A stretch of 40,955 nt of DNA, taken from Bacillota bacterium (GTDB taxonomy: Bacteria; Bacillota; Clostridia; Acetivibrionales; JAMNYG01). The DNA lies in NCBI GenBank assembly GCA_023622945.1, contig JAMNYG010000028.1:1-40955 (forward strand), written 5' to 3'. The translations under genes were made by a program, and so were the position numbers. The notes under the pieces were generated by a model, which saw only the letters and a program-made list of their open reading frames with translations, was not told the origin of the DNA and made no database searches. This document shows, piece after piece, positions 4,182 to 31,861 of the stretch; the first letter of the stretch is position 1; every line of letters starts with the position of its first letter.

Positions 4182-5681
4182 ATGCGCATAGATAAGTTTT
4201 ACAGGGATTCCTTCACTTTAACTGCATCCAACCTGTTTACAGGAATTATTGGATTTGTTTTTTCCATACTTCTGTCGAGAAATTTAGGTGCTGAAGGGCT
4301 TGGATTATATGGACTTATTATGCCTGTATATAACCTGGCTATCAGCGTTTCATGTGACGGCATGATTACCGCTTTGTCAAAAATAACAACAATATATAAT
4401 GACAGAAGAGATCTGAGAAATCTTAATAGGACCATGTCCACAGCCATGACTTTTACTTTAATTTGGAGCCTTTTTATAGCAACGGTCGTTTTTACCGGTT
4501 CTTCATTTATAGGCAGAGGGATAATAAAAGATGAAAGGAGCATAGATGCACTAAGGATTATATGTCCGGCCATTGTTTTTATATCTCTTTCAGCTACATT
4601 AAAGGGGTTTTTCTATGGAGTAGACAGGTTTAAGGTACCTGCATTTATTGACATTGTGGAAAAACTTTTTAGAGTATTGTTCTTCGTAATTGTGATTTCT
4701 TTGCTGCAGGTACGTGATGTGAAGAATTCTGTTACAGCAGCATATATCGCATTAAGTATTGGAGAGCTGACAAGCTTTATTCTTTTATATTTATGCTACA
4801 GAAAGCATAAAAACAGAAATTTGCTTCAAGTAAGGGCGACAAAAGCACAAAGCAGAATTCAACTGCTGTTTAACGTTTTTGTTATATCTTTGCCGTTATG
4901 TATAAATGGACTTCTGACATCCCTGATTGCAACAGGCTCATCTCTTCTACTGCCCAGAAGGCTTGTTTCCGGAGGGATTTCCTATGATGAAGCATTAATG
5001 CTAATAGGTAAGTTTGTTGGAATGGCCTTAAATATTGTGAATCTTCCGATGATAATAATCAGTTCAATGACCACCGTTATGGTACCTGATATTTCACTCA
5101 GTATTAGCAGAAAAGACTACTGGTCTGCTGAGATCAGAATACTGAAAGTGTTTAGGGCTGCTTTAATTGTAGGAGCATCAACTCTTATAATAAATTTGCT
5201 GATTCCTGAATCATTAGGATTACTTTTTTACAAAAGAAATGATCTTGAACGCATGATACAATTCGGTGCTGCTTGTTCCGTAATTGGCTTTATAGCTGCA
5301 CCTACATTTGGAATGCTCAATGGATTGGGAAAACAAAGGATTGTATTAAGAAATTCACTTATTATCTCTGTCCAGGGTATTGTTTTAATTATACTGCTTA
5401 CAGGCATATCTGCTATAAATATTTATGGATACGGGATAATGATGGTGATAACTTCAGTTACCGCTCTTATTATGAATTTCCATGAAATTAAGAAAACATG
5501 CGATATTCGTTTCCCGTTTAGTGATACTGCGGCCATTATGGTTATTGGGCTGATATCGATGTTTATAATAAGCAAAATCAACAACCTGATCCCTGATTCG
5601 CTTATGGTAATTGAGGCGATGTTTACTACGGTGGCGGCTTTCGGGCTTGTATATTTCTTGTATAAGTTAATCAGCGATTAA
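4182..5681 (+). CDS. SpoVB-type lipid-linked oligosaccharide flippase (MOP superfamily)
   Basis: A 499-residue polytopic membrane protein with about 14 hydrophobic segments. The N-terminus (ASNLFTGIIGFVFSILLSR, then GAEGLGLYGLIMPVY) is typical of the stage V sporulation protein B / polysaccharide-export MOP family, and GFFYGVDRFKVPA in the fourth-fifth segment region is another family block. Members flip undecaprenyl-linked precursors across the membrane; SpoVB itself acts in spore cortex synthesis. It is a single gene with only a weak GAGG ribosome site before the ATG. Clostridia carry several SpoVB/MurJ-like paralogues, so I leave the symbol blank. It is 10 kb from the glycosylation cluster and not obviously linked to it. 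Confidence 0.8.
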   Translation: MRIDKFYRDSFTLTASNLFTGIIGFVFSILLSRNLGAEGLGLYGLIMPVYNLAISVSCDGMITALSKITTIYNDRRDLRNLNRTMSTAMTFTLIWSLFIATVVFTGSSFIGRGIIKDERSIDALRIICPAIVFISLSATLKGFFYGVDRFKVPAFIDIVEKLFRVLFFVIVISLLQVRDVKNSVTAAYIALSIGELTSFILLYLCYRKHKNRNLLQVRATKAQSRIQLLFNVFVISLPLCINGLLTSLIATGSSLLLPRRLVSGGISYDEALMLIGKFVGMALNIVNLPMIIISSMTTVMVPDISLSISRKDYWSAEIRILKVFRAALIVGASTLIINLLIPESLGLLFYKRNDLERMIQFGAACSVIGFIAAPTFGMLNGLGKQRIVLRNSLIISVQGIVLIILLTGISAINIYGYGIMMVITSVTALIMNFHEIKKTCDIRFPFSDTAAIMVIGLISMFIISKINNLIPDSLMVIEAMFTTVAAFGLVYFLYKLISD

Positions 5682-15471: not shown

Positions 15472-15499
15472 ACCATATTTATTTAATTTACATAATATA
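15472..15499 (+). promoter_or_regulatory. sigma-K-like promoter of the manC operon
   Basis: AC at 15472-15473, exactly 17 nt, then CATAATATA at 15491-15499 fits the Bacillus sigma-K pattern AC-N17-CATANNNTA perfectly, about 85 nt before the manC start. Sigma-K drives late mother-cell genes for spore coat and exosporium. The DNA is AT-rich, so chance is not excluded, but the next operon of the cluster has the same pattern. Confidence 0.5.
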
Positions 15500-15585
15500 A
15501 ATCATAACCATGATCTCTTGATTGTTCAGTATTGCATCAACAACGTCCTGACCATAAAAATGTATTGATTAAGGAGTGTAAGAGT

Positions 15586-16659
15586 ATGCAAAAATATGCC
15601 GTGCTCATGGCAGGTGGTTCGGGAACAAGGCTTTGGCCTCTGTCAAAGGAAGCCAGTCCTAAACAGTTTATCCCTGTGGAGGATGGCAGCTCCATGATGG
15701 TTCAAACCATTAAACGATTGTGCAGGGTTGTTCGTCCGGAACAGTGCTTTATTTTAACAAGCCGGCTTTTAGTGGATATTACAAAAGACTCTGTGAGGGA
15801 ATACATTCCTGAAGCCAATATTTTATCAGAACCGGAGAGGAAAAACACTGCCGCATGTATTACCTATGCGACGCTTCTGCTTCAGAAAAGGCACAGGGAA
15901 GGGATTCTGTGTTTTGTACCGGCAGATGGATATGTAAAAGATACAGAAAGCTATGCGGAAGCTTTAGAACTGGCATTCGAAACCGCTGAACAGACCAACG
16001 GTATTGTCATAATCGGAGTTAAGCCTACCTATCCTGCAACCGGATATGGCTATATACATGTTGAACCTGTAAAAAATGCCGATGAGAAAACATCACGGGT
16101 TTTGAACTTTATTGAGAAACCGTCTCTGGAAGTAGCCCAGGAGCTTGTTCGTTCAGAGGATTACCTGTGGAACTGCGGAATCGTGGTGGGCACGATGGAT
16201 GCCATTATACGGAATGTAAAAGAATACATTCCAGATCATTACCACAAGCTTTCAGAAGCGCTGGAAAAAGAGGAACCTGAAACTTCTGCACTTATTGAAA
16301 AAGCTTATCGCCAGATCCAGAGCATTTCCTTTGACAACGGCGTCCTTGAAAAATGCGCTTCGTCACTGTATGCTGTCAAGGCATCCTTTGACTGGGATGA
16401 CATAGGCAGCATTGATGCCCTGGCAAAGACTCTTCAGGAGGATTCTGAAGGCAACAGGGTAAAAGGACGCCATATTGGAATCAATACAACAAACTCCATT
16501 ATTTACGGTAAAGACATCGCCATTTGCACTATAGACATAGATAACATGATCGTGGTAGGTACAAAAGACGAAATGCTTGTGTGCCCCAGGGATAAATCCC
16601 AGAAAGTGAAAAATCTCGTGGAAAAACTGAAACAACAAGGCCATGATGATCTCCTGTGA
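15586..16659 (+). CDS. manC: mannose-1-phosphate guanylyltransferase
   Basis: A 357-residue nucleotidyltransferase with the pyrophosphorylase signature GGSGTRLWPLSKEASPKQF at residues 10-28, then EPERKNTAA, the substrate loop GVKPTYPATGYGYIHV, the FIEKPS motif and NCGIVV. It makes GDP-mannose from mannose-1-phosphate and GTP, the first committed step to GDP-L-fucose. It lacks the C-terminal isomerase domain of the long bifunctional enzymes. The ATG at 15586 has an AAGGAG site; an earlier in-frame ATG at 15532 has none. It starts an operon: only 27 nt separate it from the first fucosyltransferase-like gene. Gmd and Fcl, which use its product, lie 10 kb downstream. Confidence 0.9.
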   Translation: MQKYAVLMAGGSGTRLWPLSKEASPKQFIPVEDGSSMMVQTIKRLCRVVRPEQCFILTSRLLVDITKDSVREYIPEANILSEPERKNTAACITYATLLLQKRHREGILCFVPADGYVKDTESYAEALELAFETAEQTNGIVIIGVKPTYPATGYGYIHVEPVKNADEKTSRVLNFIEKPSLEVAQELVRSEDYLWNCGIVVGTMDAIIRNVKEYIPDHYHKLSEALEKEEPETSALIEKAYRQIQSISFDNGVLEKCASSLYAVKASFDWDDIGSIDALAKTLQEDSEGNRVKGRHIGINTTNSIIYGKDIAICTIDIDNMIVVGTKDEMLVCPRDKSQKVKNLVEKLKQQGHDDLL

Positions 16660-17626: not shown

Positions 17627-18592
17627 ATGGAAAAAAGCAAATGGATGGAAATGTATAGGATCATGAGGCTTATCCGCCTGGTTGAACAAAGGATCAATGA
17701 TGAATACAAGTATGACGAGATTAAGACACCGATTCACCTGTCCATCGGACAGGAAGCTGTGGCAGCAGGTGTTTGCATACATCTCCGGAAGGATGACTAT
17801 ATCTTTGGTACCCATCGAAGCCACTCGCAGTATATTGCGAAAGGCGGAGATATCAAAAAAATGATTGCGGAACTGTACCTGAGAAAAACCGGATGTGCTC
17901 GTGGCAGAGGAGGATCCATGCATCTTGTTGATCCCGAAGTAGGGATACTTGGCTCTTCCGCCATTGTTGGCGGAAATATCCCGCTTGGAACGGGTACAGC
18001 TCTGGCTTCAAAACTTCTTAACAATGACAGGGTAACTGTTGTATTTTTTGGCGATGGAGCCGTTGATGAAGGCACATTCCATGAAAGCCTTAATTTTGCC
18101 GCGCTAAAAAAGCTGCCTGTTGTTTATGTATGCGAAAACAATTTTTACGCCATTAACTCTCACCAGCTGTCAAGGCAAGTGGGCGATAACATTTATAAAT
18201 GGGCACAGAATTATGGAATGCCGGGTTTTCAGATTGACGGAAACGATGTACTTGAAGTTTCCGATTATGCCGAAAAAGCCATTTCCAGATGCAGGAACGG
18301 TGAAGGCCCAACTCTCATTGAATGCCTTACTTACAGATGGAAAGGCCATATAGGAACGGTGGACGATGTAGGGGAAGGCTACAGACCCAGAGAGGAATAT
18401 GAGTATTGGGTTTCAAAATGCCCCATAAAAAGGTTTTCTGAATTCCTTAAAGATCAGGGAGTTTTAACTGATGAGCTAATTAAGAAAATCGATCAGGAAA
18501 TATACGATCTAATAGAAGAAGCATTCAGTTTTGCACAGAATTCTCCAAAACCTTCACCTGATGAACTGATGGATTTTGTATATGCTGACTGA
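17627..18592 (+). CDS. thiamine-diphosphate-dependent dehydrogenase E1 component, alpha subunit
   Basis: A 321-residue protein with the ThDP motif running from GDGAVDEGTFHESLNFA (from about residue 142) to ENN (about 170-172). Other E1 alpha blocks are IHLSIGQEAVAAG, GTHRSHSQYIAKG, GRGGSMHLVD and the phospho-loop-like YRWKGHIGTVDD. With the beta subunit it should decarboxylate a 2-oxoacid and hold the acyl-anion equivalent on ThDP. No E2 lipoyl transferase or E3 gene is present here, and all neighbours are sugar-nucleotide genes. That makes a normal oxidative dehydrogenase role doubtful; a carboligase role that adds a two-carbon unit to a keto-sugar is an alternative, as proposed for avilamycin AviB1/AviB2. 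A GGAGGAGG site precedes the ATG. Confidence 0.85.
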   Translation: MEKSKWMEMYRIMRLIRLVEQRINDEYKYDEIKTPIHLSIGQEAVAAGVCIHLRKDDYIFGTHRSHSQYIAKGGDIKKMIAELYLRKTGCARGRGGSMHLVDPEVGILGSSAIVGGNIPLGTGTALASKLLNNDRVTVVFFGDGAVDEGTFHESLNFAALKKLPVVYVCENNFYAINSHQLSRQVGDNIYKWAQNYGMPGFQIDGNDVLEVSDYAEKAISRCRNGEGPTLIECLTYRWKGHIGTVDDVGEGYRPREEYEYWVSKCPIKRFSEFLKDQGVLTDELIKKIDQEIYDLIEEAFSFAQNSPKPSPDELMDFVYAD

Positions 18593-18663: not shown

Positions 18664-19707
18664 ATGCCATGGACGACGGTTCAGGTTGAAAAACTGGATA
18701 ACTTTTTTATAATGGGCGATCATACGGGTGACCGTGTTCTCACATACAGAGATGCTTTACGTGAAGCTTTGGACCAGTCCCTTGCAAGGGATCCGAGAGT
18801 GTTTATCATGGGCGAAGGTGTTGATGATGTGGCCGGTGTTTTTGGAACCACCAAGGGATTGAAAGAAAAATACGGTGCAAACAGAGTGTTTGATACTCCG
18901 ATAGCAGAAAACTCAATGACAGGTATAGCAGTGGGAGCTGCCATGGCGGGGCTAAGGCCCATATTCATTCATGCCAGGATGGATTTCCTTTTGCTTTCAC
19001 TGGACCAGTTGGTAAATCACGCATCCAAATGGTGCTACATGTTCGGAGGAAAGGTAAAAGTTCCACTGGTGGTAAGAACCATAAGCGCCAGGGGATGGGG
19101 ATCAGGAGCACAGCATTCACAGTGTATACAGGGAATGCTGATGAATGTTCCGGGTTTGAAAATTGTTGCCCCTGCCACACCTTATGATGCCAAAGGATTA
19201 ATGATATCTGCCATTATCGACAACAACCCGGTGTTGTTTGTGGAACACCGGTGGCTGCATAAAACAACGGGATATGTTCCGGAAGAAGTGTATTCAATTC
19301 CTATTGGCAAAGGCGTCATCCACCGCAGGGGAGAGGATGTCACCATTGTGGCTGTGTCCTACATGCTTGTTGAGGCATTGAAGGCTGCCGAAAAGCTTCA
19401 GGAATCGGGCATATCTGCCGAGGTTATAGATCCTCGGACATTGAAACCCCTGGATGAAAAGATACTGGTGGAATCGGTAGCAAAAACCGGGAGGCTTATA
19501 ATTGCCGACACAGGCTGCAAAACGGGCAGCGTAGCTTCCGAGATAGCTGCAGTTGCAGCTGAAAAAGCGTTCCACTTCCTGAAAAAACCCATCAAGCGGG
19601 TGTGTTGCCCTGATACGCCCACACCTACCAGCGACGTGCTGGAGAAAGCATTTTATCCTACTGCGGAGGACATTTTTGCCGAAGCGGTGAGCTTGGTAAG
19701 AGAATGA
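18664..19707 (+). CDS. thiamine-diphosphate-dependent dehydrogenase E1 component, beta subunit
   Basis: A 347-residue E1 beta / transketolase-like protein. After about 20 unusual residues (MPWTTVQVEKLDNFFIMG) it has the standard layout: LTYRDALREALDQ, MGEGVDDVAGVFGTTKGL, VFDTPIAENSMTGIAVGAA with the glutamate that activates ThDP, and GWGSGAQHSQ. The C-terminal domain carries VIDPRTLKPLDEKI. It pairs with the preceding E1 alpha. AGGAGGG lies 7-8 nt before the ATG. A 23-codon frame (18618-18689, GTG start with its own GGAGG) overlaps the start and could couple translation. No acyltransferase partner is nearby; see the alpha subunit for the carboligase idea. Confidence 0.85.
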   Translation: MPWTTVQVEKLDNFFIMGDHTGDRVLTYRDALREALDQSLARDPRVFIMGEGVDDVAGVFGTTKGLKEKYGANRVFDTPIAENSMTGIAVGAAMAGLRPIFIHARMDFLLLSLDQLVNHASKWCYMFGGKVKVPLVVRTISARGWGSGAQHSQCIQGMLMNVPGLKIVAPATPYDAKGLMISAIIDNNPVLFVEHRWLHKTTGYVPEEVYSIPIGKGVIHRRGEDVTIVAVSYMLVEALKAAEKLQESGISAEVIDPRTLKPLDEKILVESVAKTGRLIIADTGCKTGSVASEIAAVAAEKAFHFLKKPIKRVCCPDTPTPTSDVLEKAFYPTAEDIFAEAVSLVRE

Positions 19708-19746
19708 AAATAGAGAACGAAAATAGGGAATGAAAAGAGGATGATT

Positions 19747-20796
19747 ATGGACAGGATAATTGAGCAGGATTGTCTTGAATATATTGAAAAAATCGATTTA
19801 TCTCCGTTAAGGAATAAAACCGTTTACATTACAGGAGCCAACGGACTTATTGGCACTTATGTGATCTATATGCTTCATCTTGCCAATGTAACCAAAGAGG
19901 CAGGGATTAACATCGTGGGTGTCAGTAAAAGCCCTCCAGGCAGCCACCTTAAGGATATTTTCAGTGACCGGTATACGTTTCATGCGGTGGACCTGAATAA
20001 TCCGGACTGCGATTGCTTTCATGTGAAGGCTGACTATATCATCCACGGTGCAACTTATGCCCAGCCGAAGAAGTTCATCCAAAATTATCTGGATACAATT
20101 CATCTGAACACAACGGTAACCGAAAGGTTGCTAAAAAAAGCCAAGGACGATGGTGCCACTCTGTTGTATTTAAGCTCTTCGGAAGTGTATGGTGACCCGG
20201 ATGAAGAACATATACCCACCAGGGAAGATTTCCCCGGCTTGTGTTCTCCTGTGGACATAAGGGCAATCTATGCCGAGTCCAAACGTATGGGTGAGACATT
20301 GTGTTTTGCCTACAGAAACTTTGAAGCTGTTGATGCAAAAATCGCCCGGATTTCCATGACATATGGTCCCGGCATCGGCCTGAAGGATGAAAGGGTACTT
20401 GCCCATTTCCTGCGGCAGGCTCTTTTTGATAAAAAGATTGTGATGCTGGATGACGGAAGCAAAGTCAGGACATTCTGCTATATTGCAGATTGTGTTCTGA
20501 TGCTGCTTTATATAATGCTCTACGGAAAAGACTTTGTATATAATGTGGGAGGCAAAGACAGTATCAGCATTCGCACTCTTGCAGAGGAGATATGCCTGCT
20601 GACGGGAAGCACATTATCCGATGAAATTGCAAACAAGGAAAGTCTGAAAGATGTCAAGGTTTCTCCCAAATTGGTCAAACTGGATATAACAAAAGTCTTA
20701 ACCGAGTTTCCTCTCCCGCCCTTCAAACCTTTCAGGGAGGGTCTGAGCCGCACGATTGAGTGGAATATGGCGGCAAACGGGTTACATGGCTTTTAA
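19747..20796 (+). CDS. extended SDR: NAD-dependent sugar-nucleotide epimerase/dehydratase
   Basis: About 349 residues. The cofactor motif is TGANGLIG near residue 30. The catalytic region has LSSSEVYGDP and YAESKRMGE (Tyr and Lys of YxxxK), followed by RISMTYGPG and the FCYIADCV block of extended SDRs. The SSSE rather than TDE tetrad points away from RmlB and towards the Gmd / UDP-glucuronate-decarboxylase side, but the reaction is not settled. I favour the ATG at 19747, giving AGAGG a normal spacing; the ATG at 19741 is too close. It ends the manC operon, immediately after the E1 pair, and could process the 4-keto sugar those enzymes use or make. Confidence 0.8.
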   Translation: MDRIIEQDCLEYIEKIDLSPLRNKTVYITGANGLIGTYVIYMLHLANVTKEAGINIVGVSKSPPGSHLKDIFSDRYTFHAVDLNNPDCDCFHVKADYIIHGATYAQPKKFIQNYLDTIHLNTTVTERLLKKAKDDGATLLYLSSSEVYGDPDEEHIPTREDFPGLCSPVDIRAIYAESKRMGETLCFAYRNFEAVDAKIARISMTYGPGIGLKDERVLAHFLRQALFDKKIVMLDDGSKVRTFCYIADCVLMLLYIMLYGKDFVYNVGGKDSISIRTLAEEICLLTGSTLSDEIANKESLKDVKVSPKLVKLDITKVLTEFPLPPFKPFREGLSRTIEWNMAANGLHGF

Positions 20797-20895: not shown

Positions 20896-20975
20896 GACTT
20901 TGCACATTGTGCCATTCCATAACTTTATGCCATTCTGCAACTTTGCACATTAAACAATCCAGTAACTTTGCACAT
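20896..20975 (+). repeat. iterated AACTTTGCACAT motif
   Basis: ACTTTGCACAT occurs at 20897, 20940 and 20965, with a diverged form AACTTTATGCCATT at 20921. The spacing is 25, 18 and 25 bp, all in one orientation. The last copy contains the CACA of the sigma-K-like promoter, so the motif may be an activator or repressor site as well as a repeat. Confidence 0.6.
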
Positions 20976-20999
20976 AAAACTACAGGTATACATAAGATA
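20971..20999 (+). promoter_or_regulatory. sigma-K-like promoter of the fucosyltransferase operon
   Basis: AC at 20972-20973 (context CACA), exactly 17 nt, then CATAAGATA at 20991-20999 is a perfect match to AC-N17-CATANNNTA. The predicted start, near 21007, lies about 20 nt before the GAGGTGA ribosome site. This is the second perfect match in the cluster. Confidence 0.55.
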
Positions 21000-21042: not shown

Positions 21043-22221
21043 GTGGCAGGTGACAGATTTCTGCTAATCAAACCTTGGAGCAACAGGTTATGGCCTGATT
21101 TGGAACACGTTTTGGGTCAACTTTTAATAGCCGAGATCACCAACCGTATCCCCGTTGTCTACTGGCCAACCCTTTGCCTGCATAACGGGTTTATTCATAC
21201 CAACGGATTTGAACTGTATTTTGAACCTGTATCCGGTTTCAGCATTTTTGATTTAGCCAAACCTGAGTATACCTTTTATCCTCCCTTCTGGGATGCAGAC
21301 AATCTGTTGGTGGAAGATGCCGACAAGGATAAATGGATGTATAGAAGCATTGGGGATCTTATAAGCAGTGACGCAAATGTAGTGGTGGCGGATGTATATT
21401 TTTCGATAGGGGAAATAATTCCCTTCGTCAGGAAAGAAAATGCTGCATACGGCATGACAGCCACAGAGATTTACCGTTATCTCTTTAAGAAATATATAAG
21501 ACCCAAGAGGGACATTATCATGGAAGTGCAGGGATTTTACAATTCATGGCTTAAGGACGGGCATCCCCTGCTGGCAGTACATGTTCGGAGAGAAGATGAC
21601 ATGATCATTGACCAAAGGAAAGATGTAGCTGATGAAAACTACTGGACCAGGTACAGCAGAAAATACGGTTCAAAACCTTCAAAAAAACGCAAAAGAAAAT
21701 ACCGCTTTTTTGGTAAAGGGAAAATGCTGAAGGCCAATACCGAGTATCATGCTGAAATCCAAAAAATTATGAATGAATATTCCATCCGGAAAATATTCCT
21801 TCTCACCGATAGTGAGGAAGTGGTAGAGGAATACCGCAAAAAGTATGGCGATTTGATCGTGTGCACCGACTGCAAGCGATTATCGAGAAACGATCCGGCT
21901 TACAACATGGAGAACCCTATGGTGAAAAGGAGACGGGGGATAGAGACAATTAAGGACGCATATCTTGCCGCACGTTGTGACTTTTTCATCGGAAACGATT
22001 TTTCAAACCTGTCTCGGGCTATATACAGGATGAAAGACTGGCCACAGGAAAATATCAAGCTTCTTTTCCGTCAAAAGAGGAAGCGGAAATACCCCGTCAA
22101 TGCAAAAATAATCGTACCCGGAGAAAACAAGCTGCTTAGTACTTTATCAGGGTTTATAAAAAAGATTTACCAGGGGATTAAGAAAAGACTGCACATTGGA
22201 GGTGGAGAAATTGACCGCTGA
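21043..22221 (+). CDS. NodZ/GT23-like fucosyltransferase, paralogue 2, with basic insertion
   Basis: A 392-residue paralogue starting at GTG with GAGGTGA ahead. It has RLWPDLEHVLGQLLIAEI, RIPVVYWP, TNGFELYFEPVSGF, FYPPFWD and SDANVVVADVYF, blocks that line up with rhizobial NodZ, and the donor motif H180-V-R182 in VHVRREDD. Just after that motif comes an insertion of about 30 residues rich in Lys/Arg (KPSKKRKRKYRFFGKGK), absent from the other three copies. The last block is ARCDFFIGNDFSNLS. The C-terminus adds a roughly 50-residue basic, amphipathic tail. It is first of three tandem overlapping paralogues. The insertion may bind an acidic acceptor or surface; that is inference. Confidence 0.72.
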   Translation: MAGDRFLLIKPWSNRLWPDLEHVLGQLLIAEITNRIPVVYWPTLCLHNGFIHTNGFELYFEPVSGFSIFDLAKPEYTFYPPFWDADNLLVEDADKDKWMYRSIGDLISSDANVVVADVYFSIGEIIPFVRKENAAYGMTATEIYRYLFKKYIRPKRDIIMEVQGFYNSWLKDGHPLLAVHVRREDDMIIDQRKDVADENYWTRYSRKYGSKPSKKRKRKYRFFGKGKMLKANTEYHAEIQKIMNEYSIRKIFLLTDSEEVVEEYRKKYGDLIVCTDCKRLSRNDPAYNMENPMVKRRRGIETIKDAYLAARCDFFIGNDFSNLSRAIYRMKDWPQENIKLLFRQKRKRKYPVNAKIIVPGENKLLSTLSGFIKKIYQGIKKRLHIGGGEIDR

Positions 22222-23275
22222 TCGATTTTTGCTTATAAAAAGCTGGGGCTGTGGCTTTTGGTCCGACGTGGATCATGTGATGGGACAGTTGCTGGCTGCA
22301 GAGCTTACAAACAGGATTCCGGTGGTTTATTGGGGAACAAACAGCCTTTACTCCGAATCATTTAAAGGAAATGCCTTTGAATTATATTTTGAACCTGTAT
22401 CCAACTACACCATTGAAGAATTGGCCAAACCCGGTTTTACCTATTACCCCCCCATATGGAACAGCAAAAACCTCACGGTGGAAGACCTGGATAAAATAGC
22501 CTGGACATACCGAAATCTGGGCGATATGATGGCCAGCGATGCCAATGTGGTAGTCAGCGACACTCATTATTTTATACGTCCCATAATCCACTACATCCCT
22601 AAGAACCATTGGGCATATGGAATGACAGCGCACCGGATATACCGATGCCTGTTTGATAAATATATAAGGCTTAAACCGGATATTCAGGAGGAAATACAGC
22701 AATTTTATGATGAGTTCATGAAGGATTCAAAACCATTGCTGGGGGTTCACATACGTGGCGGTGATAAAGTAAAGGAAGTAGAAAACCTGTCTCATTTGAA
22801 CAGGCAATATCATAAAACCATACAAAGCTTTATTGATCGGTATGGAATTAAAAAAGTCCTGTTGCTGACAGACTGTGAAGAGATTCTGAATGATTTTAAA
22901 AAGCGGTACGGCGAGATGGTTATTTATACTGATTGCAAAAGGGGGCAGATCAACGATACCCAGAATGCTCCGCATCTAACCAGCTATTTTGATAAAAGGC
23001 GCAAAGGGATAGAGATCATAAAGGATACCTACCTGGCTTCCATGTGCGACTTTTTTATAGGCAATGGCTATTCCAATGTATCATATACGGTAAAACGCCT
23101 GAAAGATTGGCAGGACAACAACATTGTCCTTTTCTACAGGAGCCTGAAGCATGAGCTGAAGCTGGCACAAAAGCGTATAAAAGCCGACCGGAGACGAAGA
23201 AAACTGGAAAGAATTCGTCATAGGGCAGAGTATCCTGAATTATACGGAGGTGTGAACACGTATGCAGATGAATAG
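22211..23275 (+). CDS. NodZ/GT23-like fucosyltransferase, paralogue 3
   Basis: About 354 residues. I choose the TTG at 22211, which has GGAGGTGG 5-6 nt ahead; a TTG at 22196 lies before that site. The start overlaps the end of paralogue 2 by 11 nt, so the genes are translationally linked. The blocks are WSDVDHVMGQLLAAELTNR, RIPVVYWG, NAFELYFEPVS, YYPPIWN, SDANVVVSDTHYF, the donor motif H180-I-R182 in VHIRGGDK, and MCDFFIGNGYSNVS. A 45-residue tail rich in Arg/Lys (KADRRRRKLERIRHR) is unique to this copy. With an intact donor site it is likely active. Confidence 0.72.
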   Translation: MTADRFLLIKSWGCGFWSDVDHVMGQLLAAELTNRIPVVYWGTNSLYSESFKGNAFELYFEPVSNYTIEELAKPGFTYYPPIWNSKNLTVEDLDKIAWTYRNLGDMMASDANVVVSDTHYFIRPIIHYIPKNHWAYGMTAHRIYRCLFDKYIRLKPDIQEEIQQFYDEFMKDSKPLLGVHIRGGDKVKEVENLSHLNRQYHKTIQSFIDRYGIKKVLLLTDCEEILNDFKKRYGEMVIYTDCKRGQINDTQNAPHLTSYFDKRRKGIEIIKDTYLASMCDFFIGNGYSNVSYTVKRLKDWQDNNIVLFYRSLKHELKLAQKRIKADRRRRKLERIRHRAEYPELYGGVNTYADE

Positions 23276-24221
23276 ATATTTATTGATTAAATCGTTAGGC
23301 AAAAGCATTTGGGCAGATGTGGATCATGTCGTATGCCAGATTCTTGCCGCAGAGTTGACTGACAGGATTCCTGTTGTGTACTGGGGCATGGAGAGCCTGT
23401 ACAGTGAATCCATCGCAACAAATGCATTTGAGTTATTTTTCGAACCGGTGTCCCGCTTCACCATAGATGATATTATTCGACCGGGATATACTTTTTATCC
23501 GCCCACATGGAACCCTGAGAAAATTTTCGCTGAAGACAGCGACAGGTTCAAAATGGAATACAGGGATTTGAAAAGCCTGATGAAAAGTGATGCCAATATT
23601 GTTGTCAGCGATGTTTATTACCCATTGAGTTCCATATTGGCATGGACCAAAAGGTCACACTGGTCTTTCGGGAAAACGCCTTATCAGGTGTACCGTTATC
23701 TTTTTGATAAATATATAAAACCAAAGCCGGAGATAAAAAGGGAAATAAAAAAATATATCAATACCAATCCTGACTTCAGGGACGAAAGGCCGATATTGGG
23801 AGTTCACTGCACTTCAAATTCCATAGTGTATGAAGTGGCACAGATTTATGACTTAAATGAATTATACAGGCCATATATCTGGCAATTCGTATCCCGGTAC
23901 AATGTCAGACATATCTTTTTGATAACCGACTCCAATAAAATACTGAAACAATACAAAAAACTGTATGGCATAAACGGCATGTTATTATATACTGACAGCA
24001 AAAAACGTCCTCTGGAAAAACGTAAGCCTACTTATCTTCTGGAATACCCGAACAAAAGGCATAAAGGTGTGGAACTGATCAAGGATACCATTGAGGTCAT
24101 AAAGGACACGTATTTGGCTGCACAGTGCGACTTTTTTATCGGCAACGGTTATTCAAACCTGTCCAATACGGTAATGCGGCTTAAGGATTGGCCTGAAACA
24201 AATATTAAGCTGTTATACTAA
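23262..24221 (+). CDS. NodZ/GT23-like paralogue 4 with lost donor motif
   Basis: A 319-residue paralogue whose ATG overlaps the end of paralogue 3 by 14 nt, with GGAGGTG ahead. The N-terminal blocks are intact (IWADVDHVVCQILAAELTDR, RIPVVYWG, TNAFELFFEPVS, FYPPTWN, SDANIVVSDVYY). The donor motif, however, reads H182-C-T184 in VHCTSNS, so the arginine that binds the GDP-fucose phosphate, and the following Asp, are missing. A seven-residue internal duplication, ELIKDTIEVIKDTYLA (nt 24074-24110), is also unique. The final block AAQCDFFIGNGYSNLS is kept. It is probably inactive as a transferase and may serve as a partner, scaffold or acceptor-binding subunit. Confidence 0.7.
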   Translation: MQMNRYLLIKSLGKSIWADVDHVVCQILAAELTDRIPVVYWGMESLYSESIATNAFELFFEPVSRFTIDDIIRPGYTFYPPTWNPEKIFAEDSDRFKMEYRDLKSLMKSDANIVVSDVYYPLSSILAWTKRSHWSFGKTPYQVYRYLFDKYIKPKPEIKREIKKYINTNPDFRDERPILGVHCTSNSIVYEVAQIYDLNELYRPYIWQFVSRYNVRHIFLITDSNKILKQYKKLYGINGMLLYTDSKKRPLEKRKPTYLLEYPNKRHKGVELIKDTIEVIKDTYLAAQCDFFIGNGYSNLSNTVMRLKDWPETNIKLLY

Positions 24222-24255
24222 ACAGCCGGTTTTACAAGGAAGTGGAGGGATGATT

Positions 24256-25173
24256 TTGAACTCTAGTGAAGTGAAATATATAGAATTAATAAAGAGCAAA
24301 TATCCCCAGCTGGATCTGTCAAAAATTGAGTTTAACAAAACCGACGGGAGCTATAGCTTTATAGCCATAGTAAATAATGATGTGGTGTTCAAGTTCGCAA
24401 AATATGACTGGAGCGCTGCTTTCCTGAGAAATGAAGCGGATGTGATCCGCTTCATCCGGGGTTTTATTACTTTGCCCTTACCGGATGTGGAACTTGTCGA
24501 TCAGAATATGTCCAGGCATAGTTTTATCAAGGGTGCTCCTTTATACCGGAATACTTTACTGAAACTGGATTATCATACGCAGGAGAGCATTGCCAGGCAA
24601 ATTGCCACTTTCATGAATCAATTGCATACCATCCCGGTAAAAAAAGCACGAAATGCAGGGATCGGTGATTCCGCGTGGAACTGGACAAGGAGAGAGTGGC
24701 TGGCGGAATTGGAAAACATGCAAAGAAAAATATCACCTTACTGCACAGGCTATGTCAAGGAGTATTTGCGCCAGATTATACAGCCTGCCGTTGAAAATGA
24801 GGATTTTTTCAAATTCAAGCCTGTGCTCATCCATGGGGATCTGACACCTAACCATATACTGTTTGACAAGACAACCCGAAGGATTAGCGGTATCATCGGC
24901 TTTGCCAATGCAGGTTTTGGCGATCCCGCTTTTGATATCGGAATGCTTTTGGACCATCTGGGAGAGAACTTCATCAAGAGGGTTCACAAATATTATCCGA
25001 TTTCTCATGCATGCCTGGACAGAGCGAGATTTTATGCATATATCAGCAGTTTTATGTGGTTAAGGGATGTCTGCGATATGATTTCAACACGGGATTTTTC
25101 CCGTTTTCAAATTCCGGCAAAGGACAGGGACATTTCACCTTTGGGAATATCATTTTCAGATGGCAGGGGTTAA
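24256..25173 (+). CDS. APH-fold phosphotransferase-like protein, possible pseudokinase
   Basis: About 305 residues of aminoglycoside/choline-kinase fold. The catalytic loop H193-G-D-L-T-P-N199 is present, with the N-lobe lysine in VVFKFAKYD. The metal-binding Asp of the DFG-equivalent, normally I-D-F/W, is replaced by Gly 215 in GIIGFANAGFGDPAFDIG. This predicts weak or no ATP-dependent transfer. I favour the TTG at 24256, which puts GGAGGG 6-7 nt away; the ATG at 24250 is too close to it. It follows paralogue 4 by 34 nt in the same operon. Spore coat proteins of the CotS type share this fold, which fits the context but is not shown by sequence. Confidence 0.72.
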   Translation: MNSSEVKYIELIKSKYPQLDLSKIEFNKTDGSYSFIAIVNNDVVFKFAKYDWSAAFLRNEADVIRFIRGFITLPLPDVELVDQNMSRHSFIKGAPLYRNTLLKLDYHTQESIARQIATFMNQLHTIPVKKARNAGIGDSAWNWTRREWLAELENMQRKISPYCTGYVKEYLRQIIQPAVENEDFFKFKPVLIHGDLTPNHILFDKTTRRISGIIGFANAGFGDPAFDIGMLLDHLGENFIKRVHKYYPISHACLDRARFYAYISSFMWLRDVCDMISTRDFSRFQIPAKDRDISPLGISFSDGRG

Positions 25174-25255
25174 GACATCCAAAAATGCATTGTGACATCC
25201 AAAAGGGATTCGGAATAGAATGATGTTACAGGAATATCTGTTAGGAGATGGTGGT

Positions 25256-25708
25256 ATGAATTTCACTCCTGATGATTTAGGCCGTCTCACGATCAAAAAA
25301 GCACTTTTTGACGGATACAGCAAAAAACAGGTGGACAGCCTGCTTGCAAAAATTATCGAAGACTACAAAGAGATGGATAAAAAAAACCATGAGTTAAAAT
25401 GTCAGATCGCTTCCCTGAATGAGACGGTACAACATTACAAGGTACTTGAAGAATCTCTTCAGCATTCAATCCTGGTTGCGCAACATACGGCTGAACAAGT
25501 CAAGACGAACGCATGCGAGAAAGCAAAAAACATATTAAATGAAGCAGAGATAAAAGCACAGAAAATTATTGATGACGCTAACAGTGAGGCCAGAAAAATC
25601 AGGGCAAAATATGAGGAACTCAAGAATGAAATGTACGCTTTCAAAACAAAATCGGAAGCCTTGCTTCAGGCCCAGATGGATACTCTCAAGCAACTGTTTT
25701 CCGAATAA
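25256..25708 (+). CDS. DivIVA-like coiled-coil protein
   Basis: About 150 residues. The N-terminal MNFTPDDLGRLTIKKALFDGYSKKQVDSLL matches the DivIVA/GpsB membrane-curvature-binding domain. A long coiled coil follows from about residue 45 to the end, with the Ala/Glu/Lys-rich NEAEIKAQKIIDDANSEARKI stretch typical of DivIVA. The ATG at 25256 with AGGAG ahead is preferred to the ATG at 25220. Such proteins mark poles and septa and recruit partners. Here it closes the fucosyltransferase operon, so it may position the glycosylation proteins at a cell or forespore boundary; that is inference. Confidence 0.78.
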   Translation: MNFTPDDLGRLTIKKALFDGYSKKQVDSLLAKIIEDYKEMDKKNHELKCQIASLNETVQHYKVLEESLQHSILVAQHTAEQVKTNACEKAKNILNEAEIKAQKIIDDANSEARKIRAKYEELKNEMYAFKTKSEALLQAQMDTLKQLFSE

Positions 25709-25779: not shown

Positions 25780-26730
25780 TTATTTTTCTGGACCTGAAAG
25801 CTGTTTTTGCATATTGACGTAATACTCATATTCTCTCCGTATTCCTTCCTTTAAATCGGTTTTCGGCTTCCAGCCGGTTTCCAGAATCTTTGAATTGTCC
25901 AGAACTCTTCGTGGTGTTCCGTCAGGTTTTGTAGCATCAAATATAATTTCTCCCTGAAAACCTACAACTTCGCGGATAATTTCAGCCAGCTCCCTTATGC
26001 TGATTTCCTTCCCGGAACCGATGTTAATCAGCTCGCTGCTTTCATAATTCTGCATCAGGTAAAGACATGCCTCGGCCATATCGTCCACATACAGAAATTC
26101 ACGTAATGGCTTACCTGTACCCCACAATTCAACAAAAGGCCGGTTTTCGATTTTGGCTTTGTGGAATTTTACAATCATGGATGGGATTACATGAGAGTTA
26201 TAAGGATCAAACCTGTCATTAATGCCGTAAAGGTTAGCAGGCATAACCGAAATATACCGGGTGCCATACTGCTTGTTGTAAGACTGGCACATTTTAATGC
26301 CCGATATTTTGGCCAGGGCGTATGCTTCATTGGTAGGCTCCAGAGGGCCGGTAAGCAGGTATTCCTCTTTAATGGGTTGAGGACAGTGTTTCGGATAAAT
26401 ACATGAACTTCCGAGGAACATCAGTTTTTTTACATTATTCTTAAAAGCACTGCGAATCACATTACATTCAATCAGCATGTTTTCCATGATGAAATCAGCA
26501 GGGTAAGTATCGTTTGCATGAATTCCCCCCACTTTCGCCGCTGCAAGAAATACATATTCAGGTTTTTCCTCTCTGAAGAACTTCTCGCATTCTGCCTGGT
26601 TTGTCAGGTCCAGTTCCTGATGCGTCCTTGTGATAATATTTTCAAACCCGTTTTGCCTAAGACATCTGACTATGGCCGAACCAACCATACCCGTATGTCC
26701 TGCCACATATATTCTGCTGTTCTTTTCCAC
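25780..26730 (-). CDS. fcl: GDP-L-fucose synthase
   Basis: A 316-residue extended SDR. The NADPH motif is GHTGMVGSA at about residues 11-19. The catalytic Ser is in LGSSCIYP and the Tyr/Lys pair is in [19 protein letters not shown] and [15 protein letters not shown] are hallmarks of the GDP-4-keto-6-deoxymannose epimerase/reductase. It converts GDP-4-keto-6-deoxy-D-mannose to GDP-L-fucose. The start is GTG with AAGGAGGG ahead, only 12 nt after the gmd stop, so the two are cotranscribed. It converges on the fucosyltransferase operon. Confidence 0.93.
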
Positions 26731-26742
26731 GAAAATCCCTCC

Positions 26743-27771
26743 TTAATCCAGCTTTATACCCGCAGCCTGGAGATCACTTTTAACCATCATGGCAACCAAT
26801 TCTTCAAAGGATACTCTGGGCTTCCATCCCAACTTGCTTTTTGCTTTTGCGGGGTTCCCCAGCAGCAGGTCCACTTCGGTCGGTCTGAAAAACTCACTGC
26901 TGACACGAACCAGTTCCTTTCCGGTATCTTTATCAACGCCTTTTTCATCTAAACCTTCTCCCGTCCAGACCAGGTTGATTCCGGCATTACGGAAAGCCAG
27001 TTCACAGAATTCTCTCACCGTATGGGTTTCTCCTGTTGCCACCACATAGTCGTCAGGTTGGTCTTGCTGGAGCATCAACCACATGGCTTCAACATAATCA
27101 CCGGCATACCCCCAGTCTCTTTTTGCGTCCAGGTTGCCAAGATATAAGCAATCCAGTTTGCCGGCAAGAATGTCAGCAATTCCTGTTGTGATTTTTCGTG
27201 TGACAAAGTTTTTTCCTCTTCTTGGGGATTCGTGATTAAAAAGTATTCCATTGCAGGCGAATAAGTTGTAGGCTTCCCGATAGTTTACAGTAATCCAGTA
27301 TGCATACAGCTTGCTCGCAGCATATGGACTTCTTGGGTAAAAGGGAGTGTTTTCATTTTGAGGTATCTCCCTTACTTTCCCGAACAGTTCGCTTGAGGAA
27401 GCCTGATAGAATTTAATTTTCGGGTTTACTTCCCTGATACTCTCCAATAACCTGACCGTACCGATGGCGTTTACATCTGCTGTGAATTCCGGTATATCAA
27501 AGGAAACTTTCACATGGCTTTGTGCCGCCAGGTTATATACCTCGTCGGGTTCAATTTTGTACAGCAATCTGCTGAGGCTGCCCGTATCGGTCATATCACC
27601 GTAATGCAGAGTTATTTTTTTCGGCTCATCCAGCAGATGGCTGATCCTTTCGGTATTATCAGTACTGCTTCTTCTGACAAGCCCATGCACTTCATATCCT
27701 TTTCCAAGCAAGAACTCCGCCAGATAGGAACCATCCTGTCCGGTGATTCCTGTAATCAATGCTTTGCTCAT
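26743..27771 (-). CDS. gmd: GDP-mannose 4,6-dehydratase
   Basis: A 342-residue enzyme with [19 protein letters not shown] at residues 8-26, GLVRRSS, the [12 protein letters not shown] block, catalytic [17 protein letters not shown] and [16 protein letters not shown], all characteristic of Gmd. It oxidises and dehydrates GDP-mannose to GDP-4-keto-6-deoxymannose, the substrate of Fcl and also a possible 4-keto acceptor for the E1 alpha/beta pair. AGGAGG precedes the ATG. It is first in a two-gene minus-strand operon and divergent from the surface-protein gene. Confidence 0.95.
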
Positions 27772-28146: not shown

Positions 28147-30021
28147 ATGCCGACGGTAACGATTAATATTCCCGAAACAACCTTTGTATCCAGTGCCCAA
28201 CCTTCATCGAATTTTTCATTTTACCCTTTGATGTATGTGGGCATTGATACGGTATTTTCAGAATGCATCGGTCTGATGGAAATTGATTTGTCATCTATAC
28301 CCGTGACCAATGTCGACAGTGCAATTCTTCAGTTATCTGTAATTGTGAAAACCGATGGCAATCCAAGCCCCATACTTGTAAACAGGGTGACATCCCCTTT
28401 TGATGCTGCAACTGTAACTTACAACACTTTACCGTCTTTTACTCCGACATCTTCGCAGGTTAATGTCAACACGTCTGATCTGTACACGACGATAGGGATA
28501 GACATCACAACCCTCGTGAATGAATGGCTTAGCGGAGCTCAACCAAATCACGGTATTGCGCTGACAAATGAGGATGGAGAGACCCTGGTACAGTTTGGTA
28601 CTAACAATATAGTATATGAGCCATACTTCCCAAAGCTTGTGGTTACCTATCAGGACACTCCGGTTCCTACAGGTAATCCCTATGGGTATGTCTACAACAC
28701 CGGAAACCAGACAATCCCGGTACTTGGCTCTGTTCCCTTCAGCAACAATGGCGCTTTGCTTGGAATAAGGCATGATATAGACACAGCCCCTATAATTATT
28801 GATTCCGCCGGAGTATACGCGGTCTGGTATACTGTTACCGCATCGGAGCCCAACCAGTTCAGGCTGTACCTGAACGAAGATATTGTATTGGGAAGCGGTT
28901 ATGGTTCCAGTGAGAATAATAACGGTTATACAGGGATGGCTATCATTAAAGCTGCTGCAGGCGACCAGTTAACCCTGAGAAATGCTGTCAGCAACGACTC
29001 TGTTACTCTTGACAATACAGCTGGAGGAACAGGACTGGGTGTCAGCGCTTCCATCCTGATTCTCAAAGTGGGAGAGGCTGATACAACCAATCCTGCACTG
29101 GATGCGGTTAACAATGCACAGGATGTAACGCAGATGCGTACAGCCATTACCGATCCTGCTCTTGGTCTGAATCTTGCCGGTTTCAATTCCCTGAGCGCTA
29201 CAGCTCAGGATATAGTGCTCCAATCCCTGCTGGAAAACCGTCCCAATCTGGGTTATCCGTCAGTGGGCAGCGTACAGTCAGCGCTTAATACGGCGGTAAA
29301 TGAAGTGGTTGACCCTGAGAATATTCGCGTAAAAGCCGGCAGCGTGGGAGGAAACGGAAGCCTTGCACATCCTTTCGGCAACATTGCAGAGGGTATTGCT
29401 GCGGTAGTTCCCGGTGGAACGGTTCATGTAGCGGCAGGCACCTATCCCATCACAACCCAGATCAATGTGAACAAAGCGGGAATGACACTGCTGGGCGAAC
29501 CGGGTGCAGAGCTCATCCTGCAGGCAGATATCATTCCAATACTGATTACCGGTAACGGTGCAGTGGTCAAGGGTTTGACCATAACCAGCGATGTTCCCTA
29601 TCCAAAGGAATTTATCCAAATAGGTGCACCTAATGTAAGCCTTATAGGAAACACCATTTACGGTCCTGTACAGCCACCGCCGATGTCGGATTGGGTTGTG
29701 AACCGGGCTGTTGTATCCCAGGTGAGTACCCAAAACGTGCTTTTAGAGGGGAACACGTTCTACTCACTGAGAACAGGAATGTATATCAATCCGAATACAA
29801 CCGGCTCCATCATCAACAATGTGGTTTACAACACCAAAGGCGGATTCCTGGTAGACCGTGCCTTAACTACACTTACAGGTAACTCGTGGGGAGATCCGCC
29901 AAACGAATTCGACATTGTACTCCTTCCAGGAACTACAATGGGACCACCATACGACGATGTTGATCAACTGTCAGCGCAAAACAATAATGCCACCATCTCC
30001 GATCAGAGATCTGATCAGTGA
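28147..30021 (+). CDS. DNRLRE / BclA-like / beta-helix surface protein
   Basis: A 624-residue modular protein. Residues 1-172 form a DNRLRE domain (VGIDTVFSECIGLMEIDLSS, ending FPKLVVTYQD). Residues about 178-305 form a jelly-roll domain very like the BclA exosporium C-terminal domain (NTGNQTIPVLGSVPFSNNG, ANQF-like EPNQFRLYLNED). Residues about 310-385 hold a helical module (DAVNNAQDVTQMRTAITDP). Residues about 390-600 form a right-handed beta-helix starting with VKAGSVGGNGS. There is no signal peptide or anchor, so Sec export is unlikely. Spore surface proteins made in the mother cell also lack signals. Ser/Thr/Asn are plentiful, so it is a reasonable glycosylation target. AAAGGAAG precedes the ATG. 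Confidence 0.78.
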   Translation: MPTVTINIPETTFVSSAQPSSNFSFYPLMYVGIDTVFSECIGLMEIDLSSIPVTNVDSAILQLSVIVKTDGNPSPILVNRVTSPFDAATVTYNTLPSFTPTSSQVNVNTSDLYTTIGIDITTLVNEWLSGAQPNHGIALTNEDGETLVQFGTNNIVYEPYFPKLVVTYQDTPVPTGNPYGYVYNTGNQTIPVLGSVPFSNNGALLGIRHDIDTAPIIIDSAGVYAVWYTVTASEPNQFRLYLNEDIVLGSGYGSSENNNGYTGMAIIKAAAGDQLTLRNAVSNDSVTLDNTAGGTGLGVSASILILKVGEADTTNPALDAVNNAQDVTQMRTAITDPALGLNLAGFNSLSATAQDIVLQSLLENRPNLGYPSVGSVQSALNTAVNEVVDPENIRVKAGSVGGNGSLAHPFGNIAEGIAAVVPGGTVHVAAGTYPITTQINVNKAGMTLLGEPGAELILQADIIPILITGNGAVVKGLTITSDVPYPKEFIQIGAPNVSLIGNTIYGPVQPPPMSDWVVNRAVVSQVSTQNVLLEGNTFYSLRTGMYINPNTTGSIINNVVYNTKGGFLVDRALTTLTGNSWGDPPNEFDIVLLPGTTMGPPYDDVDQLSAQNNNATISDQRSDQ

Positions 30022-30118: not shown

Positions 30119-31861
30119 TCAGAATATCTTCTTAACCTTGCTGAGAATGTTCTTCCTGAGCCTGCGAAGTTCTTCATGTGCAAGTCTGCTGTCCTTACCA
30201 CAGGCTTCAAAATAAATCTTAATTTTAGGTTCAGTACCTGATGGCCTGATGCAAAACCATGAACCGCCGGATACTTCACAGTATATTACGTCTGATTTTG
30301 GCAGTTTCAGGGATTCTGTTTTTCCGGTTTTTAAATCATACCTTTGCTGTTTCAGGTAGTCTCTTACTGCCACAATTTCAATATTGTCGAATGTTTTGCC
30401 GACATTGTTCCTGATTCTTGACATTCCGAGTTTTATCCTGTCAATTCCTTCTTTCCCTCTGAAGGTTCTGGAGAACATACCTCCATAATAAAACCCGTAT
30501 TTCTCATACAATTCCAGCAAAGCATCATAAAGGGTCTTTCCGTTTTGCTTGTAGTAAGCAGCTGCTTCAGCAATCAACATGGAGGCAAGAACCCCGTCCT
30601 TATCCCGTATATAGGTACCTGTCAGGTAACCGCAACTGTCTTCAATTCCTAAAACAAAACTTTTACCTCCAGGTTCATCCATTTCCCGAATCTTTTCGCC
30701 TATATATTTAAAACCGGTCAAAACATCTATCAATTCTACACCGTAGCTGTTTGCAATTGCCCTGGCCATTTCGGTGGTTACTATTGTTTTGACGGCAAAA
30801 GCATTCTGGGGAAGTAAAGAAGACTTCTGCTTCATGGAAAGGATATACTCCATCAGAAGAACCCCCACCTGGTTTCCGGACAGCAATACATAATTCCCTT
30901 TGAATTTCTTTGTCATCACACCCATCCTGTCACAGTCAGGGTCGGTAGCGATGATTAAATCAGCATCTTCTTTTTTGGCCAGCCTGATCGCATGTTTATA
31001 TACCCTGGATTCCTCAGGGTTTGGGGCCGGTTTTGCGTTTGTAAATTCAGGGTCCGGATACTCCTGATTTTCAACCACCAGTACGTTTTTAAACCCTGTC
31101 TCATGCAATATTCTTCTCACAGGCTTGTTGCCTGTTCCATGAAGGGGAGTATAAACTATTTTTAATGAATGGTTCGGGTATTCCGTTGAATTATTATTGC
31201 TGAGGGATAATGTTTTCAGTTTTGAAATATATGCATCATCAATCTCTTTACCTATTATTTTCAGCAGACCCATGCTTAAAGCAGTATCTTTTTCCATAAG
31301 CTTAATATTGGTTACGTCGGAGATATTGTTAATCTCCTCGAGTATTTTGGATGTGACTTCAGGTGTAAGTTGTCCGCCGTCTTTTCCGTAAACCTTGTAG
31401 CCGTTGTATTCCTTCGGATTATGACTGGCGGTTATGACTACTCCTGCAACGGTACCAAGAAACTTTACTGCAAAGGCCAGTTCCGGGGTTGGCTTAATCT
31501 CATCAAAAAGGTAAACTTTTATACCGTTACCGGTAAATACTTTCGCCGCCTCGAGTGCAAATTCCTGAGACTTGTACCTGGAATCATAGGCAATGACTAT
31601 GCCTCTCATTTTTGCTTCATTTTCATGTCTTACCAGGTAGTTTGTCAATCCCTGGGACGCTCTTCTCACAGTGTATTTATTAATCCTGTTGGTACCGGCG
31701 CCTATTATCCCTCTCATGCCACCTGTCCCAAAGTCAAGATCTTTGAAAAACCTGTCTTCTATTTCTTCAGGTTTGCTTCTGATTTTCATGAGTTCTGACC
31801 TTGTCTCCTGGTCAAAATATTCATTTTCCAGCCAATACAGATACTTTTCATAACTGTTCAT
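30119..31861 (-). CDS. phosphoglucomutase/phosphomannomutase (alpha-D-phosphohexomutase)
   Basis: A 580-residue enzyme of the PgcA/PGM2-like group. The phospho-serine motif is TASHNPKEYNGYKVYG at about residue 140-155, the metal loop is ATDPDCDRMG, the sugar-binding loop is GIEDSCGY, and the phosphate-binding loop is RPSGTEPKIKIYF near the C-terminus. It interconverts hexose-6-phosphate and hexose-1-phosphate and can supply mannose-1-phosphate to ManC or glucose-1-phosphate elsewhere. GGAGGAA precedes the ATG. Upstream on the minus strand, CATAATATG with AC 16 nt before it (plus coordinates 31933-31959) is a near match to the sigma-K pattern. It stands alone. Confidence 0.9.
   Translation of the reverse strand: MNSYEKYLYWLENEYFDQETRSELMKIRSKPEEIEDRFFKDLDFGTGGMRGIIGAGTNRINKYTVRRASQGLTNYLVRHENEAKMRGIVIAYDSRYKSQEFALEAAKVFTGNGIKVYLFDEIKPTPELAFAVKFLGTVAGVVITASHNPKEYNGYKVYGKDGGQLTPEVTSKILEEINNISDVTNIKLMEKDTALSMGLLKIIGKEIDDAYISKLKTLSLSNNNSTEYPNHSLKIVYTPLHGTGNKPVRRILHETGFKNVLVVENQEYPDPEFTNAKPAPNPEESRVYKHAIRLAKKEDADLIIATDPDCDRMGVMTKKFKGNYVLLSGNQVGVLLMEYILSMKQKSSLLPQNAFAVKTIVTTEMARAIANSYGVELIDVLTGFKYIGEKIREMDEPGGKSFVLGIEDSCGYLTGTYIRDKDGVLASMLIAEAAAYYKQNGKTLYDALLELYEKYGFYYGGMFSRTFRGKEGIDRIKLGMSRIRNNVGKTFDNIEIVAVRDYLKQQRYDLKTGKTESLKLPKSDVIYCEVSGGSWFCIRPSGTEPKIKIYFEACGKDSRLAHEELRRLRKNILSKVKKIF

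Follow-up and report, generated by a model that had tools for sequence, protein, structure and literature searches.

A conserved trio of NodZ/FUT8-like paralogues in a clostridial GDP-fucose locus with candidate sporulation promoters

Four related genes and their conservation

Contig JAMNYG010000028.1 of a Bacillota bacterium from the order Acetivibrionales (assembly GCA_023622945.1) carries four genes for NodZ/FUT8-like paralogues, here called P1 to P4; the whole stretch of 40,955 nucleotides (nt) is referred to as the window. P2, P3 and P4 overlap in tandem, P1 lies upstream, and all four open reading frames (ORFs) are intact. P2 and P3 share 11 nt, with GGAGGTGGAGA preceding the TTG start of P3 at 22211, and P3 and P4 share 14 nt, with GGAGGTGTGAACACGT ahead of the P4 start; both of these strong ribosome sites sit within the respective preceding gene. 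An earlier, sequence-only reading of this DNA had described the gene order, the overlaps, the internal ribosome sites and P1 as the most compact copy, and is confirmed in these respects. Among the orthologous loci, most have the same 11-nt overlap of P2 and P3 (six lack it), and P3 and P4 overlap by 11–41 nt in every locus; since the overlaps recur in this way, they are not due to chance.

The other paralogues are 44–51% identical to P3 in pairwise alignment. Of the sequence blocks that the sequence-only reading assigned to all four proteins, RIPVVYW and CDFFIGN are indeed common to all; SDAN is absent from P1, which has MDVD instead, and the NAFEL block differs in P1 (NAFEQFFLPVS) and P2 (NGFELYFEPVS). 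Three of the four proteins pass Pfam cutoffs: P1 those of NodZ (32.8 bits, cutoff 28.3) and FUT8_N_cat, P2 that of O-FucT alone (39.5 bits, cutoff 31.5) and P3 that of FUT8_N_cat (36.7 bits, cutoff 27.6). P4 passes none, its NodZ score being 13.4 bits. A profile of the paralogues compared with the PDB retrieves NodZ (1e-11), FUT8 (~1e-7) and POFUT1 (1e-4). AlphaFold2 models of P3 (mean predicted local distance difference test, pLDDT, 75; predicted template modelling score, pTM, 0.74) and P4 (pLDDT 82.5, pTM 0.83) have NodZ and FUT8 as their best PDB matches (Foldseek E ~1e-11 to 1e-12, template modelling (TM) scores 0.5–0.6); therefore, even P4 is predicted to retain the fold. Membership of a GDP-fucose donor family with this fold is supported by the sequences, the predicted structures and the adjoining GDP-fucose genes.

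P2, P3 and P4 occur together and in identical order in 17 of 17 related clostridial loci, which belong to Ruminiclostridium and uncultured relatives; the presence of P1 varies among them. Of 58 genomes in the order, 18 contain the family, and P2, P3 and P4 are never found without each other except at contig ends. Sampling of the class contributed one further genus, with all four paralogues, and the phylum-level sample contributed none. The tree gathers the sequences of different genera into one clade per paralogue (support 100/100 for P2 and P4, 99/99 for P3), from which it follows that the duplication is ancient and that one copy cannot stand in for another. Judged by this tree, the triplet already existed when Ruminiclostridium and its relatives diverged, and a recent tandem duplication is ruled out. 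The local duplication with divergence that had been proposed is thus correct, but of considerable age, and the idea of functionally equivalent copies is contradicted by the lineage-specific conservation patterns. The draft genome, which is 86% complete, yielded no fifth paralogue. A tblastn search with P3 gave no match in phage and plasmid collections, and a mobile or phage origin was rejected on this basis.

A lone gammaproteobacterial homologue (L028:5932-6837), 37% identical to P3, has a catalytic-type HLRGSDK motif. This suggests that the ancestral state of the family was catalytic.

Donor-site residues and a proposed division of labour

In the profile alignment, the HIRGGDK motif of P3 pairs with HVRRTDK of FUT8, so that R187, D190 and K191 (P3 numbering throughout) are equivalent to FUT8 R365, D368 and K369. 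In FUT8, these residues serve to bind the donor or to position it, and activity depends on them (PMC12930516; PMC7014118); replacement of the equivalent arginine in POFUT1, R240A or R240K, gives inactive enzyme (PMC3180450). Conservation was counted over distinct orthologue sequences (17 for P1, 26 for P2, 25 for P3 and 24 for P4). P3 keeps R187, D190, K191, E194 and N294 in 25/25. The equivalents of R187, K191 and E194 are likewise invariant in P1 (17/17), with D190 in 16/17.

P4 presents a different pattern: D190 is changed to A or S and K191 to I, L or V in all 24 sequences, E194 is kept, and R187 is retained in 19/24, with K, Q or T in the other five. The P4 in the window has T; in a further, truncated P4 (L016), the arginine is replaced by H. 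In P2, E194 is kept in none of the 26 sequences and D190, K191 and N294 are variable; R187 is kept in 21, the five with C or L forming one clade. Directly behind the HxR motif, P2 carries a basic and variable insertion of ~35 residues. At least four independent arginine losses are placed on the tree; P4 accounts for three of these and P2 for one, with none in P1 or P3.

The ratio of non-synonymous to synonymous substitution rates (dN/dS) is 0.084 for P3, 0.084 for P4 and 0.154 for P2. With 119 of 307 alignment columns invariant and the ORF intact in all loci, P4 is under strong purifying selection and is constrained as much as P3. Its loss of donor-site residues makes it highly likely that P4 is inactive in this organism.

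Candidate promoters, sugar supply and a possible acceptor

The sigma-K consensus of B. subtilis is AC-N16/17-CATAnnnTA. Matches to it lie ahead of manC, P2 and the phosphomannomutase-like (PMM-like) gene (Table 1). P2 is preceded by a match in 27 of 28 loci and manC in 17 of 23, where first-order Markov sequences would be expected to give ~0.48 and ~0.55, respectively. Alignment of the P2 promoters shows an invariant −10 CATA and a later invariant AT, with spacers that vary in sequence at near-fixed spacing. The nine inner operon genes have no sigma-K match across the loci scanned; gmd starts have one in 11/24 loci, this window not included. Sigma-E and sigma-G patterns gave no match upstream of these operons. 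The sporulation gene spoIVA is found in 56 of the 58 order-level genomes, including that of this organism, which also has a split sigK-like gene. In C. difficile, genes for coat and exosporium glycoproteins, bclA1-3 among them, are under the control of sigma-K (PMC3789822). It is very likely that the locus is under sporulation control, a setting that the sequence-only reading did not reach since it missed the promoter, and the promoter and gene content taken together indicate that it is probably a late-sporulation system for spore-surface fucosylation.

Three exact direct repeats of ACTTTGCACAT (at 20897, 20940 and 20965) are clustered within 80 nt (20897-20975) immediately upstream of the P2 promoter, although the window-wide count of this sequence is not above chance (it is reached in 12/100 shuffles).

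Table 1. Positions and assignments of genes and candidate promoters in the window.
Feature	Positions	Strand	Basis and remarks
Sigma-K-type promoter, AC-N17-CATAATATA	15472-15499	+	32 nt upstream of manC; consensus match
ManC, mannose-1-phosphate guanylyltransferase (to GDP-mannose)	15532-16659	+	NTP_transferase, ManC_GMP_beta-helix; GMP_PMI below cutoff
P1	16687-17607	+	306 amino acids, shortest of the four; NodZ/FUT8-like fucosyltransferase with conserved donor residues; optional in relatives
Thiamine pyrophosphate-dependent dehydrogenase E1 alpha	17627-18592	+	E1_dh; conserved in cluster (synteny)
Thiamine pyrophosphate-dependent dehydrogenase E1 beta	18664-19707	+	Transket_pyr, Transketolase_C
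NAD-dependent sugar epimerase/dehydratase	19741-20796	+	Epimerase PF01370
Sigma-K-type promoter, AC-N17-CATAAGATA	20972-20999	+	43 nt upstream of P2; consensus match
P2	21043-22221	+	GTG start, 392 amino acids; insertion in catalytic loop; probable non-catalytic partner
P3	22211-23275	+	TTG start, alternative start 22196; HIRGGDK; probable catalytic fucosyltransferase
P4	23262-24221	+	ATG start; HCTSNS; probable pseudo-fucosyltransferase
APH-fold kinase	24250-25173	+	APH PF01636; conserved downstream of P4 (synteny)
DivIVA/GpsB-like coiled-coil protein	25220-25708	+	DivIVA PF05103; conserved in cluster
GDP-L-fucose synthase (Fcl/WcaG-like)	25780-26730	-	Epimerase family; adjoins gmd in nearly all complete loci
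Gmd, GDP-mannose 4,6-dehydratase	26743-27771	-	TIGR01472, 569 bits, cutoff 415
DNRLRE and BclA_C-like protein	28147-30021	+	Candidate spore-surface acceptor; no obvious signal peptide
Phosphomannomutase/phosphoglucomutase-like (PMM-like)	30119-31861	-	PGM_PMM I-IV
Sigma-K-like site	31959-31933	-	Ahead of PMM-like gene; consensus match

By gene content, the PMM-like, ManC, Gmd and Fcl-like proteins cover every step between mannose-6-phosphate and GDP-L-fucose. The other conserved neighbours are the E1 alpha and beta subunits, the epimerase, the APH-fold kinase and the DivIVA-like protein. The E1 pair is of the pyruvate-dehydrogenase type and is a fixed part of this glycosylation cluster, without E2 or E3. 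A CotS-type spore kinase was considered for the APH gene and rejected: no CotS model is listed among its matches, and general APH matches fall far below their cutoffs.

The protein encoded at 28147-30021 matches DNRLRE (110.7 bits) and, just below the cutoff of 38, BclA_C (37.2 bits). Relatives, some of which match one domain, occur in 17/18 genomes with the trio, as opposed to 3/40 non-carriers of the order. The Ruminiclostridium genomes have these relatives away from the locus, and a role as acceptor is therefore only a suggestion.

Several further observations were made in passing. In R. papyrosolvens, an ORF that looks subtilase-like by eye is located between the epimerase gene and P2 (L026:7220-8443); another locus has a DNRLRE-type ORF in the same position (L023:7550-8686). 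An IS200/Y1-type transposase gene is found at 2732-3646 of the window, in which no Rfam RNA family was detected. The sigK-like gene of this genome is split by ~5.5 kb (L116, G000:C164:13800-20800) with ORFs named by eye as a large serine recombinase (L116:900-2414), a Gfo/Idh-type oxidoreductase-like protein and a GH42-like beta-galactosidase; the insert reads as a skin-like element with sugar-metabolism cargo. Several Ruminiclostridium-like genomes have the core sporulation gene spoIVA split after about residue 405 (L117, G023:C1:2862900-2871000; similarly in G017 and G020-G022), and in G025 the parts are ~39 kb apart. The splitting element holds a large serine recombinase, a GH53-like ORF and agr-like ORFs (named by eye), and is possibly another excisable interruption of a sporulation gene.

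Proposed mechanism, alternatives and related systems

The best overall explanation, with a probability of roughly 0.6, is that P2, P3 and P4 form a sigma-K-expressed fucosylation complex in which P3 is catalytic and P2 and P4 are non-catalytic partners. The three genes would constitute an ancient, probably translationally coupled operon of proteins like those of glycosyltransferase family 23 (GT23), transcribed in the mother cell by sigma-K RNA polymerase at a late stage of sporulation. P3 would be the active fucosyltransferase, fed with GDP-L-fucose by the products of the adjoining PMM, ManC, Gmd and Fcl genes. P4, having lost its catalytic centre in this organism, and P2, which may be in the process of losing it, would join P3 in a cytoplasmic hetero-complex and serve there in a structural role or in recognition of the acceptor; P1 would be a second, optional active transferase. 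The presumed target is a spore-surface glycoprotein or glycan of the coat or exosporium, possibly the neighbouring BclA_C/DNRLRE protein.

Not every part of this model is equally secure, and a number of points weigh against it. Computation directly supports the family and fold, the synteny, the overlaps, the residue losses, the selection and the conserved promoters; catalytic activity, the complex, the acceptor and the location on the spore are inferred from these. A physical complex is slightly favoured, but overlapping ORFs could be translationally coupled without any such complex. Most P4 orthologues retain the arginine and may be active. In the alignment, NodZ too is without a D/K pair behind HxR, so that loss of D190 and K191 alone is no proof of inactivity; the arginine provides the stronger argument. 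Confidence in the P3 model is moderate, and TM-scores to NodZ and FUT8 reach 0.5–0.6. The sigma-K sites are consensus matches in loci that share descent, so the 27 found at P2 do not represent independent events, and six of 23 manC starts have no site. As for the acceptor, the odds that it is a protein are even; the BclA_C/DNRLRE protein in this role is a guess, its Ruminiclostridium relatives being distant from the locus and in part single-domain matches.

If the acceptor were not a protein, P2 to P4 could build an envelope polysaccharide, of the spore or of the cell, that contains fucose, with the BclA_C/DNRLRE neighbour incidental. The sugar-nucleotide genes, the epimerase and the APH-fold kinase would suit such a pathway, as would the non-adjacent BclA_C-like genes in Ruminiclostridium. 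This reading is nevertheless doubtful: the conserved block has no flippase, polymerase or initiating transferase, the Polysacc_synt flippase at 4182-5681 lies outside it and beyond unrelated genes, and the DNRLRE/BclA_C family tracks the carriers of the trio.

Alternatively, four (or three) active fucosyltransferases may work sequentially on a single spore glycan, with a different acceptor position for every enzyme. The paralogues are old lineages that have been conserved separately, the HxR arginine persists in most P4 and P2 orthologues, and NodZ functions without the D/K pair. Such a series is unlikely, however, as the window P4 has threonine at the essential arginine, no P4 orthologue has D190 and K191, and selection was not relaxed despite a minimum of three arginine losses in P4 and one in P2. 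The sequence-only reading had offered sequential addition of several fucoses and a hetero-oligomer side by side; with these residues lost and the P4 gene kept under purifying selection, an active P3 accompanied by pseudoenzymes is a better fit than a series of four transferases.

Glycosylation of the vegetative cell surface or the cellulosome, with CATA-type promoters arising by chance, is improbable. Several carriers are Ruminiclostridium, which is cellulolytic, but the presence of the promoter ahead of P2 in 27/28 loci, with almost fixed spacing and spacers that vary, argues against chance, and the candidate acceptor is without an obvious signal peptide. Decay of P4 (and P2) to pseudogenes would account for the missing catalytic residues and is practically ruled out by the intact ORFs in all loci, the invariant columns of P4 and the low dN/dS values (0.084 for P4, ~0.15 for P2).

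A more specific form of the favoured P2-P3-P4 complex is a sporulation-specific, cytoplasmic machine for bacterial protein fucosylation, consisting of one GT23-like catalytic subunit and two obligatory pseudo-fucosyltransferases that choose or hold the acceptor; this remains tentative. The parts are of known kinds, and the fixed trio on the FUT8/NodZ fold, in which decayed members are conserved under a sporulation promoter, appears to be undescribed: it was not found in the literature searched, including that on fucosyltransferases or fucose with Ruminiclostridium, spores, BclA, exosporium or spore coat, in which coverage is incomplete and subscription papers are mostly missing. The locus points to fucosylated spore surfaces in clostridia, and as several carriers are cultured type strains, testing is practical.

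Among known enzymes, the rhizobial alpha-1,6-fucosyltransferase NodZ (GT23) is the top PDB match by both profile and fold. A GDP-fucose donor is expected here too, and P3 and P1 have the HxR arginine; identity over the fold is ~18%, and the present system differs in having four paralogues rather than one, two of them losing donor-site residues, and a sporulation promoter. Unlike that of nodulation NodZ, the setting is a clostridial sporulation-type locus, with no nod genes in the window. FUT8, the core alpha-1,6-fucosyltransferase (GT23), shares the motif pairing with P3 described above; the paralogues are bacterial and probably cytoplasmic, without a match to its N-terminal region. POFUT1 and POFUT2 (GT65 and GT68) belong to the same fold class, with weaker matches that score below GT23, and neither EGF nor TSR acceptor domains are seen here.

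The acceptor candidate recalls the sigma-K-controlled, spore-surface BclA exosporium glycoproteins of C. difficile in its BclA_C-like domain and differs in that its translation contains no collagen-like repeats. GT23-like transferases with GDP-fucose genes are not seen in the available part of the C. difficile bclA/sigma-K account (PMC3789822).

In its way of working, the proposed complex resembles GtfA/GtfB, the O-GlcNAc transferase pair acting on serine-rich repeat adhesins, in which a catalytic transferase is joined by an acceptor-handling partner (PMC6973325). The paralogues have no DUF1975 Pfam match and are not members of the GtfA/GtfB family; sugar, family and secretion route all differ, and that system has two members, as against three here. 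Pairs of active and inactive glycosyltransferases are known for other sugars, and the P2-P3-P4 trio offers a testable model for the origin and retention of pseudo-glycosyltransferases.

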